Below, one piece after another: positions 2,599 through 45,948 of a DNA stretch of 59,766 nt. The DNA comes from Spirochaetales bacterium. GTDB taxonomy: Bacteria > Spirochaetota > Spirochaetia > Treponematales > Treponemataceae. The notes below the pieces were generated by a model. That model had not been told where the DNA came from. It searched no databases and worked only from the letters and a program-made list of their open reading frames with translations. The translations under genes and the position numbers were made by a program. The stretch spans positions 1-59,766 of the forward strand of contig QKDA01000075.1 of assembly GCA_003246765.1 (NCBI GenBank), given 5' to 3'. Each line of letters opens with the position of its first letter. Position 1 is the stretch's first letter.

Positions 2599-2657
2599 CT
2601 CCTTGTTACTATGTGTAGTAACAAGGAGATAGTATCCCTCCTTACGGGATGTGTCAA
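2599..2657 (-). promoter_or_regulatory. Promoter with perfect 13-bp inverted repeat at the start site of the TrpXYZ-like operon
   Basis: On the minus strand a -35 TTGACA (2652-2657), a 17-bp spacer and a -10 TACTAT (2629-2634) form a near-consensus sigma-70 promoter. The predicted start near 2622 lies within a perfect inverted repeat, arms CTCCTTGTTACTA (2599-2611) and TAGTAACAAGGAG (2616-2628) around a 4-nt centre. It can act as a repressor operator, and in RNA the remaining hairpin would pair part of the AAGGAG ribosome-binding site. The ACTA/TAGT half-sites resemble those of E. coli TrpR operators, though the spacing is 2 bp shorter. A trpR gene lies 3 kb away. Confidence 0.7.
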
Positions 2658-5431: not shown

Positions 5432-5446
5432 CCCTTCAAGTATATT
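5411..5446. promoter_or_regulatory. Overlapping divergent promoters of the orphan gene and trpR
   Basis: Between the two divergent starts (5431 and 5454) lie only 22 bp. AATATACT (5411-5418) and AGTATATT (5439-5446) are exact inverted copies. The right copy supplies TATACT to the minus strand 7 nt before 5431, and overlaps TATATT (5441-5446) on the plus strand 7 nt before 5454. The left copy could be a second plus-strand -10. No good -35 is seen for either. The arrangement suggests shared or mutually exclusive transcription. Confidence 0.5.
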
Positions 5447-5453
5447 GTTTCTT

Positions 5454-5774
5454 ATGGAAGAAACACTCGAACGGAATGGGGGGGAAGAGGATCTGATCCT
5501 CGAGAAGGCTTTCGAGGAACTTTGCGAGGCCCTGGCTCGAACGGAAGATTCCGCCCTGATTGGCGATTTTCTGCAGGGTCTCCTGACCCCTACGGAACGG
5601 AGGGACGTTTCCTCCCGGTGGGCCCTGGTCAGGGAGATTGACGCGGGTACCACCCAACGCGAAATCGCCCGAAAGATGCGCCTTTCGCTGTGCAAGATTA
5701 CCCGGGGGTCAAAGGAACTCAAAAAGGAGAACTCCCCCTTCAAGCGGATGATAGGGATGCTGGGGAAGCAATAG
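5454..5774 (+). CDS. trpR: Trp repressor family regulator (TrpR)
   Basis: A 106-residue all-helical DNA-binding protein. The TrpR core is clear: LTPTERRDVSSRWALVREID aligns with the E. coli LTPDERE region. The helix-turn-helix follows with TTQREIARKMRLSLCKITRG, then SKELKKENSPFKRM; the ITRGS pattern at the end of the recognition helix is diagnostic. TrpR proteins bind L-tryptophan as co-repressor. The ATG at 5454 has no ribosome-binding site, and a TATATT hexamer ends 7 nt upstream, so the mRNA may be leaderless. A strong terminator follows. A likely target is the TrpXYZ-like operon at 0-2.6 kb. A YerC-like role not tied to tryptophan cannot be excluded. Confidence 0.88.
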   Translation: MEETLERNGGEEDLILEKAFEELCEALARTEDSALIGDFLQGLLTPTERRDVSSRWALVREIDAGTTQREIARKMRLSLCKITRGSKELKKENSPFKRMIGMLGKQ

Positions 5775-5825: not shown

Positions 5826-8708
5826 TTATTTTAGGAGGTCCGCTATGCGGGGCCGCTGCCAACGAAGGGCGATGTCCCGGGCGGTTTCCCCCGCTATGTT
5901 TCGGACCGTGCGGTCAACCCGCGCCAGGGCAAGGAGCCGTCGTACGGTGTCTTCGTCGGCAATCCTCGCGGCGTAATGCAGGAGACCGTCTCCAACGGTG
6001 TCCGTTCGGTCAGCGCAGAACTCCGCCAGGGTCGGCAGGAGGGATTGCTGTTTCGTTAGGGCCAGGGCGGCGGGGCTCTCCCCGGAATTGTCCCCCGCGT
6101 AGGGGTCCGCCCCGGCGGCCAGAAGAACCCGGGCGCTGTCGCCCTGGCCGGTTCTAACGGCCATGAGCAGAGCCGTGGCGCCGGACCCGTTCCGGTTGTT
6201 CACGGGGAATCCCGAGTCGATCAGGCCCTGCAGGGTTTCCGGGGAGCTCCGGGAGGCGAGGGCCACGTGGAGGGGCGTGTTTCCGTCGGAATCCACCAGG
6301 TTCTTGTTTCCCCCGACCACCGCCATGACCGCCTCGGAGGATTTACGGTACGCCAGGGAAAGGGGGGTGTTCCCGAAGGAATCCCGGGCCATGGGGTTGC
6401 CCCCGGAGCTTCTGACCAGGATTATCACCTCTGACCCTGCCTTTTCGACGGCGGCGTGGAAGGCGTTCCGGCCGTACATGTCCTGCATGACCGCCGAGGC
6501 TCCGGAAGAGAGGAGAAGCCTGACTGCGTCTGTCCTCAGGGCCTCAATGGCGTCCGTGAGGGGAGTCTTTCCAGTCTCGTCGGCGGCGTTAACGTCCGCG
6601 CCGAAATCGAGCAGAAAGCGGGTAAATGACAGGTTGCCCGTGGTGGCGGCCTCATGGAGGGCCGTTTTTCCCGCCAGGTTGCGGGCATTCAGGACCCGTT
6701 TGCCGTTGGTCCGGGTATCTCGTTCCGCGATGGCGCGGGCCGCGTTGTGCGCTGCCCAGCGGACGCAGGCGTGCAGGGCGGTGTTGCCGAGAAAGTCCCG
6801 GGCGTTGATGTCCGCCCTCTTGTCTCCCGCCCCGTTGAGCAGGGCCGTAACGGCGGCGCTGGAATCGGCCTTGACGGCGTTAAAGAGGGGCGTTTCGCCA
6901 TTTGAGTTTCGGGCGTTGAGATCCGATCCCTTCTCCACGAGAAAGGCTACCACCTCGGTTAGCTGCCATTCGGCGGCGAGATGGAGGGGGGTATTGCCCG
7001 AGCTGTCGGCGGCGTTGATTACGTTGGAGTTGAGAACCCAGTCCTGGCGTCCCCCCATTCGGCTGAGGGCGGCCCTGAGGGCGGATTCCCCCGCGACGTT
7101 GGGGGTGAATACATCGGCGCCCCGCGCGAGGAGGAGTTCTCCCGTGGCCCGGTCGTTGTTGCGGACCGCCACGTGCAGCGGGGTGTCCCCGTTTCGGTCC
7201 CGCGCGTTTACGTCAGCCCCGGCGGAAATGAGATACGCGATAATCTCGCCCTTCGCCTGCGCCTCCGCGGCCACGTGGAGGGGCGTTCGTCCCCGGGAAT
7301 CCCGAGCCTGGACGTTGGAGGGGGCAATGACCGCCCGGGTCATTTCCAGGCCCGATTCCAGGGCCTTGCTCACCGCCGTATTGCCCTCCATGTCCTCGGC
7401 GTGAATGTCGGCTCCCAAGGCAATGAATACCGCTGCCTGGGCCGCCTGTCCCCGCTCTATGGCCAGGGAAAGGGGCGTCACGCCCTTCTTGTTGCGTTCG
7501 TTCACGTCGGCCCCGGCGTTCACTAGGGAACGGAGAATGGCTTCGTCCATGCCGAGGCGGGCGGCGATGTGCAGAGGGGTCTCGCCGTAACTGTCCTTTT
7601 TATTCGGGTTCGTTCCCGCGTCCAGGAGGGCCGTGAAGAGGGCGGAACGGGAGGCCGCGGGCATGACCAGATGGAGGGGCGTATTTCCCGAGGAATCCTG
7701 CTGGTTAGGATCCGAGCCGGCGGCAAGCAGCCTTTTCGAGCAGTCAACGCGGCCGTAACGGACGGCTTCGTGCAGGGCGGTAGAACTGGAAATGTCCTTG
7801 GCGTTCGCCGGGGCTCCCCGTTCAAGGAGGTATTCCACGAAGCCGAGGTGACCCGCCGCGGCGGCGAGATGGAGGGGCGTTTTCCCTTCCTCGAACCGCA
7901 TGGCCACGTTCCTCTTGAGAACGGCAGTCTCGAAATAGCCGAAGTCCTCCCGCTCGGGCTCCGCTCCTGCCAGAATAAGGGTCGAGGCTATTCTGGCCGC
8001 GGAGACGGCCTCGCTCCGGCCGTAGGCAAGCCGGAGGGCCGAAACTCCCGAATTGTCTCTCAGGGATACCGGGGCCCCCGCCGCGACGACCGCCCCGACG
8101 GCGGTTTCGTCAAGCTCGCTAACGGCGTAGTGGAGCAGGGAACGTCCGGCATCGTCCCGCTGCGCGACCGTTGCGGGGGAGATAAGGGCGTTCATGGCTT
8201 CGCTCCCCGCATCGGCGGCGAAATTCCAGGGGGTTTTCCCCGCCTCGTTCACCTTAAAGAGGGATGCGCCCGAACTGGCGAGTACCTTGGCCGCATCGAG
8301 ACAATTGGCCTGTATCGCCGCGGCTAGGGGGGTATCTCCAAGGGCGTCAGCCGCCTCCGGGTCCGCCTTGAGGGCTAACAGGAGAGCTACCGTTTCGGCG
8401 TCGTTTCTGAGGGCCGCTACGTGAAGAAGGCTCTGGCCCCGGCTGTTTTTTTGATTGACCGATTCGCTACCCGCCAGGCGCTTCTTTACCTCCTCGTTTC
8501 TCCCTTCCGATATGAGGTCCATGAGGCTAAGGTTTTCAGCGGGAACCGCGGCGGCCGCGGGGGGCGCGCCGGCGCAGGAGGCGAGCAGGAGGGCCGATAC
8601 GGGGGCCGAGAGCGCGAGGATCCCCAGGGTTACCGCCCGTAGCAGGTTATGCGCCTTCACTGAAGAGAGGCGGCCGGTTTCGTTCGTGGTTGGTCGTGTG
8701 ATAGTCAT
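5826..8708 (-). CDS. Large ankyrin-repeat lipoprotein
   Basis: A 960-residue predicted lipoprotein. After an N-terminal cytoplasmic stretch, a hydrophobic segment (TLGILALSAPVSALLLASC) ends in a lipobox with Cys near residue 45. The rest is an almost uninterrupted ankyrin array of about 25 or more 33-residue units, each with variants of GNTPLHLAA and LLxxGADxNARD, ending at RIADLLK. Such arrays are protein-binding solenoids; the periplasmic or surface partner is unknown. The ATG at 8708 has GGGGGGAG 11 nt upstream; a GTG in VKAHNLLRAV would give a more ordinary signal peptide. It is transcribed divergently from the HPt gene, with only 98 bp between them. Confidence 0.9.
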   Translation of the reverse strand: MTITRPTTNETGRLSSVKAHNLLRAVTLGILALSAPVSALLLASCAGAPPAAAAVPAENLSLMDLISEGRNEEVKKRLAGSESVNQKNSRGQSLLHVAALRNDAETVALLLALKADPEAADALGDTPLAAAIQANCLDAAKVLASSGASLFKVNEAGKTPWNFAADAGSEAMNALISPATVAQRDDAGRSLLHYAVSELDETAVGAVVAAGAPVSLRDNSGVSALRLAYGRSEAVSAARIASTLILAGAEPEREDFGYFETAVLKRNVAMRFEEGKTPLHLAAAAGHLGFVEYLLERGAPANAKDISSSTALHEAVRYGRVDCSKRLLAAGSDPNQQDSSGNTPLHLVMPAASRSALFTALLDAGTNPNKKDSYGETPLHIAARLGMDEAILRSLVNAGADVNERNKKGVTPLSLAIERGQAAQAAVFIALGADIHAEDMEGNTAVSKALESGLEMTRAVIAPSNVQARDSRGRTPLHVAAEAQAKGEIIAYLISAGADVNARDRNGDTPLHVAVRNNDRATGELLLARGADVFTPNVAGESALRAALSRMGGRQDWVLNSNVINAADSSGNTPLHLAAEWQLTEVVAFLVEKGSDLNARNSNGETPLFNAVKADSSAAVTALLNGAGDKRADINARDFLGNTALHACVRWAAHNAARAIAERDTRTNGKRVLNARNLAGKTALHEAATTGNLSFTRFLLDFGADVNAADETGKTPLTDAIEALRTDAVRLLLSSGASAVMQDMYGRNAFHAAVEKAGSEVIILVRSSGGNPMARDSFGNTPLSLAYRKSSEAVMAVVGGNKNLVDSDGNTPLHVALASRSSPETLQGLIDSGFPVNNRNGSGATALLMAVRTGQGDSARVLLAAGADPYAGDNSGESPAALALTKQQSLLPTLAEFCADRTDTVGDGLLHYAARIADEDTVRRLLALARVDRTVRNIAGETARDIALRWQRPRIADLLK

Positions 8709-45782: not shown

Positions 45783-45948
45783 GCGCCAAAGTCTCCTGGC
45801 TTGACGGCTTCGGGATCCGGGGATCCGTAGGGGGCCGTCCTGCCTTCCCGGAGCTTTTTCAAGTCCAGTGGCATTCGTTGGGGGCTCCCTGCCGTTCACA
45901 GTTACGGGCTAGCGGCGGATTCTCACCGCGCTTCCTTTGAAACGTTCG
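45783..45948 (-). ncRNA. Cobalamin (adenosylcobalamin/B12) riboswitch
   Basis: Minus-strand leader with the conserved B12 aptamer blocks in order: AAAGGAAGCGCGGTGAGAAT and CCGCCGCTAGCCCGTAACTG, then TGTGAACGGCAGGGAG, ATGCCACTGG, CGGGAAGGCAGGACGG, and finally the B12 box AAGCCAGGAGACTTTGGC near 45786-45803. A run of eight T (45769-45776) follows the B12 box, consistent with transcription attenuation, though I could not define the terminator stem. It controls the lipoprotein and TonB-dependent receptor genes. The 344-bp intergenic region from 45684 to 46027 is occupied mainly by this element, its promoter and the 5' region of the lipoprotein mRNA. Confidence 0.93.

Follow-up and report, generated by a model that had tools for sequence, protein, structure and literature searches.

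A candidate TrpR-family operator over the start site of a TrpXYZ-type importer, and its conservation at tryptophan genes of spirochaetes

The window, meaning the whole 59,766-nucleotide stretch of DNA that was analysed, begins with the genes of a TrpXYZ-type ABC importer and carries a trpR-family gene further along. The features on which the analysis turns are as follows.

648 to beyond position 1, minus strand: trpZ, ABC ATPase, truncated by the window edge (Walker and signature motifs recognised by eye)
1547–645, minus strand: trpY, permease (PF02653)
2592–1570, minus strand: trpX, binding protein of the ABC importer, ATG at 2592–2590 (PF04392, 257 bits)
2604–2599, minus strand: Shine-Dalgarno AAGGAG of trpX, within one arm of the palindrome
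2599–2628: full palindrome CTCCTTGTTACTA-TGTG-TAGTAACAAGGAG, a perfect inverted repeat of 13 bp with 4 nt between the arms
2605–2622: putative core operator GTTACTATGTGTAGTAAC, the conserved inner 18 bp, GTTACTA-N4-TAGTAAC
2629–2657, minus strand: trpX promoter, −35 TTGACA at 2657–2652, 17-bp spacer, −10 TACTAT at 2634–2629
5447–5464: second putative operator GTTTCTTATGGAAGAAAC, which overlaps the start codon of trpR and immediately follows a −10-like TATATT (5441–5446)
5454–5774, plus strand: trpR-family repressor gene, 106 aa (PF01371, 57 bits, cut-off 27)

The initial annotation of this DNA had described the TTGACA-17-TACTAT promoter, the perfect 13-bp inverted repeat and the AAGGAG in one of its arms, and all three are present in the sequence. 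Dinucleotide shuffles of the window contain no match to the palindrome at up to three mismatches. Counted from the −10, transcription of trpX is likely to start near G2622, so that the 5′ arm, at its CTCC end (2628–2623 in gene orientation), probably extends upstream of the transcript. TrpX scores 260 bits against the NCBIfam model NF041285 (TrpX), below its cut-off of 390, and tryptophan is the presumed substrate of the importer.

Related genomes delimit the part of the palindrome that matters. Within the genus and the family the exact core, GTTACTA-N4-TAGTAAC, is kept upstream of trpX, and a cultured relative, Brucepastera parasyntrophica, is among the carriers of the site; for wider comparison we used the generalised motif GTTWCT-N6-AGWAAC. 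Across 32 genomes of the order, whose trpX upstream regions span four families (f1, f3, f4 and f5), the exact generalised motif lies within 250 bp upstream of trpX in 26, where single-base shuffles predict 0.000, and a version with one mismatch is found in two more. The trpX upstream regions of the other four genomes of this set (G011, G039, G048 and G056) hold no good site, and each of 13 upstream regions of non-spirochaete trpX genes differs from the motif at three or more positions. The usual position is directly behind the −10 and over the predicted start, with a TTGAC-type −35 at a similar distance upstream in many relatives; some sites are instead placed between the −35 and −10 or over them. 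The outer CTCC/GGAG extension is common only to G008 among the genomes read, which limits the conserved unit to the inner 18–20 bp, and the 30-bp palindrome as a whole was accordingly rejected as the functional unit. In the motif built from exact-core sites, T occurs at position −10 in 76% of them and a pyrimidine (T or C) at −2 in 98%, positions −9 to −3 being fixed by the search pattern itself.

The genome from which the window comes contains five generalised sites, against none for a reversed-pattern control. They lie at trpX, at trpE (two), at trpR and at one orphan position (GTTTCTGCCGAAAGAAAC, L251 2550–2567, G000:C264) with no trp gene seen nearby. The two sites ahead of trpE-trpGD-trpC are 42 bp apart, and the −35 TTGACA falls within the upstream copy, GTTTCTATTGACAGAAAC (L090 3732–3749). 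At trpE of genus members a −35-containing copy of this kind precedes the start-site operator by 42–48 bp, and trpB promoters of relatives show such copies as well. No operator was found at trpB of this genome in the stretch read, and the generalised motif does occur at trpB in five other genomes.

Beyond the genus, the genes next to the sites share a theme. The exact core was found in 62 of 274 Treponemataceae genomes, compared with three matches for the reversed pattern, and 70 of the 71 exact-core sites read in context adjoin tryptophan-type target genes. These are trpE (27), the S component of an ECF transporter (22), a PaaK-like CoA ligase (14), trpX (9) and trpCF (1), three sites having been counted for two divergent genes each. 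The ECF S component is of the TrpP type (PF17099, above cut-off). The one site of the 71 without such a neighbour (L231 2958–2975, in G194) has a long ORF on one side and an aldolase-like gene on the other. Counting exact cores alone missed many trpE operators, which carry GTTTCT variants that the generalised motif picks up: among 24 trpE promoters from related genomes, 19 carry exact generalised sites, 35 in all (expected 0.000), and these often stand two or three in tandem. Tryptophan is thus the common theme of the site-bearing genes. A check of relatives that retain trpR, for persistence of the palindrome beside trp genes, gave the same answer, the core being conserved there. The PaaK-like loci comprise L086, L193, L074–L076 and other Treponema loci, and one site among them also adjoins an IorA-like gene (POR_N). 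These neighbours suggest, by gene context, that a route between indoleacetate and tryptophan may be under the same control.

The candidate binder is the product of 5454–5774; PF01371 matches nothing else in the genome. The protein scores 53.6 bits against the NCBIfam trp operon repressor equivalog TIGR01321, short of the cut-off of 67.25, and is therefore described here as a PF01371 member working like TrpR, not as a TrpR equivalog. Its AlphaFold model has a pLDDT of 88, and in a Foldseek comparison TrpR-family chains take all of the top 41 places, with probabilities of 0.99–1.00 at E-values of 0.007 or weaker. Among the closest matches are the Firmicutes TrpR-like structures 3g1c, 3frw and 3kor, which have the same fold and for which, to our knowledge, no regulon has been assigned. 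Across 88 distinct TrpR-family sequences the equivalents of E. coli T44, R54, R69, T83, R84 and G85 vary little or not at all. In the tryptophan pocket T44, R54, R84 and G85 are kept, whereas T81 is replaced by K or N and S88 by E. The S88 side chain of E. coli TrpR contacts the ligand (PMC8081663). With these two pocket positions altered (T81 to K, S88 to E), the ligand of the spirochaete protein may not be tryptophan alone.

We propose that the palindrome is very probably a DNA operator for the TrpR-family repressor encoded at 5454–5774. The tryptophan-bound dimer would bind GTTACTA-N4-TAGTAAC over the trpXYZ start site and keep RNA polymerase off the promoter, and the importer would then be made only under tryptophan scarcity. 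Through GTTWCT-N6-AGWAAC the same repressor would act in this genome on trpE-trpGD-trpC and on its own gene, and in relatives it would also control trpB, the TrpP-type ECF transporters and the PaaK-like ligase. What the sequence itself shows is where the sites lie, that they are conserved, which genes they adjoin, that they cover promoters and starts, and that trpR is linked to them; that this TrpR binds them, that tryptophan is its corepressor and that the result is repression is what we infer. The initial annotation had already suggested that TrpR controls the importer through this palindrome, and conservation of the core at trp genes together with the linkage to trpR argues for that suggestion.

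The alternative that deserves most attention is that the palindrome is indeed the operator of a tryptophan regulon but is bound by some other DNA-binding protein, the TrpR-family protein having another role. We give this a small chance, roughly that of an outsider. Co-occurrence does little to settle the matter: of 221 genomes examined from the order, 183 have a PF01371 match, and a family so nearly ubiquitous makes joint presence with the operator weak evidence. A comparison of trpR presence with operator presence, at one point considered as the decisive test, was dropped for this reason, its outcome being consistent with the link. Genus g20, which has no PF01371, and genus g15, with one marginal match in eight, have no exact-core sites; conversely, five of the 62 site-bearing genomes lack a PF01371 match, where genome incompleteness alone predicts 8.7. 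One of them, G285, is 93% complete and carries two sites, a point in favour of a different binder, as are the residues at pocket positions 81 and 88 that differ from those of E. coli. Against a different binder, inspection of the genes on either side of the 71 sites showed no other regulator, and gene linkage, which we regard as stronger evidence than co-occurrence for TrpR as the probable binder, ties trpR itself to the operators. This linkage can be summarised as (i) trpR lies divergent from trpX with operators between them in G047 and G055, and in the same arrangement with a one-mismatch site in G357, making three genomes of two genera; (ii) an operator lies over the trpR start codon, behind a −10, in the window, in G002, G004 and G006 and, in another genus, in G236, with a one-mismatch version in G001. 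The second half of the trpR-start site also codes for the first residues of the protein, which leaves the upstream half as the informative one. Seven relatives examined (G003, G005, G007, G009, G010, G011 and G028) have no operator at the trpR start, and autoregulation is therefore not universal. At these trpR genes the ATG stands about 7–8 nt behind the −10 (window 5441–5464; L154, L197, L206 and L229), so close that the mRNA is probably leaderless.

A further observation against a different binder is that base −3 of the operator appears to track residue 81 in the recognition helix of TrpR. At start-proximal trpE operators (loci L267–L290), G occupies −3 in 7 of 10 cases with an N81 TrpR and in 0 of 13 with a K81 TrpR, in an exploratory comparison with small numbers that was chosen after the data had been seen. 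The N81 proteins form one clade (support 98/97), while the TrpE sequences of the same genomes are divided among three positions in the TrpE tree; contrary to the trend, G142 (K81) has G at −3 in its upstream trpE site. The association hints at a contact between protein and DNA. A more far-reaching version of the TrpR proposal would be an order-wide regulon with its own code, GTTWCT-N6-AGWAAC, in which residue 81 and base −3 changed together, the −35 came to lie within a trpE operator copy, and a K81/E88 pocket perhaps senses an indole compound, in addition to tryptophan or in its place. Sensing of that kind would fit control of a route from indoleacetate of the PaaK and indolepyruvate-oxidoreductase type. 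Taken as a whole we consider this version tentative, with perhaps a quarter of our belief behind it.

Control at the RNA level fares worse than a different binder. The initial annotation had pointed out that the repeat could form a hairpin masking the ribosome-binding site of trpX, and the palindrome might in principle act mainly in this way. If the RNA began six bases further upstream than the likely start, its arms would pair over 13 bp, GGAG included (−18.9 kcal/mol, z −4.8). With the likely start at 2622, however, the stem is 7 bp long and GGAG lies outside it (−7.7 kcal/mol, z −0.6), a fold no better than those of shuffles. The CTCC/GGAG extension needed for masking is not conserved beyond G008, and in many relatives the Shine-Dalgarno sequence lies outside the arm; at trpE of this genome it is about 25 nt from the operator. 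Tandem operator copies that sit between the −35 and −10, or that contain the −35, would not be transcribed. The DNA operator accounts for all of these observations and an RNA switch does not, and we regard the masking hairpin as very improbable. Control of trpXYZ by a T-box, known for the same genes of Streptococcus suis (PMC9382623), would be less probable still, to the point of being negligible: Rfam gives no T-box match in the window at the gathering threshold, and the predicted trpX leader, at only about 30 nt, is too short to hold one.

The TrpR operator proposed here differs in register from the classical one. The E. coli trp operator is GTACTAGTTAACTAGTAC, with ACTAG-N4-CTAGT, that is ACTA-N6-TAGT, and E. 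coli R69 contacts its outer G. The palindrome here, GTTACTANNNNTAGTAAC, has in common with it the 18-bp span and the GT...AC ends, whereas the ACTA and TAGT blocks are four bases apart instead of six, 2 bp closer. ACTAG-N4-CTAGT does not occur in the palindrome, and the likeness to the E. coli site noted in the initial annotation is thus out of register (ACTA-N4-TAGT against ACTA-N6-TAGT), with only the outer GT...AC coinciding. The proteins differ too: the recognition helix reads SLC[K/N]ITRGS in the spirochaete family and GIATITRGS in E. coli, and, as noted above, the protein here falls below the TIGR01321 cut-off.

TrpR regulons have been described for E. coli and other gammaproteobacteria (PMC5343134). 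Like them, the set of genes found here combines a PF01371 repressor with synthesis, uptake and the repressor's own gene as targets; unlike them, it includes TrpXYZ-type and ECF-TrpP importers and a PaaK-like ligase. Outside the Proteobacteria, TrpR of Chlamydia trachomatis exerts tryptophan-dependent control over the promoter of its own trpRBA operon (PMC6504234, PMC7755916), a single operon in contrast to the dispersed regulon with transporters proposed here. The trpXYZ genes of S. suis, induced under tryptophan limitation through their T-box, encode the same kind of importer, with RNA control by tRNA there as against a putative DNA operator here. No TrpR operator or regulon of a spirochaete was found in the open-access literature, to which the search was confined; of the publications pairing TrpR with spirochaetes, one concerns TrpRS and another the evolution of TyrA, and the rest appear, from titles and abstracts, to be unrelated.

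If the proposal is correct, it would provide a function and a DNA target for a repressor family present throughout most of this spirochaete order, where the earlier TrpR studies that we found concern gammaproteobacteria and Chlamydia. The operator would differ in register from that of E. coli, and its natural sequence variants would be of use in the study of how TrpR reads DNA. Poorly annotated transporters and the PaaK/IorA-like pathway would in turn acquire tryptophan-related roles.

Two other features of the window were recorded. A 960-aa ORF (5826–8708, minus strand), with ankyrin-type repeats recognised by eye, is convergent with trpR, and a similar large ORF lies downstream of trpR in G001 and G004. 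A cobalamin riboswitch is found at 45789–45937 on the minus strand (71.3 bits).
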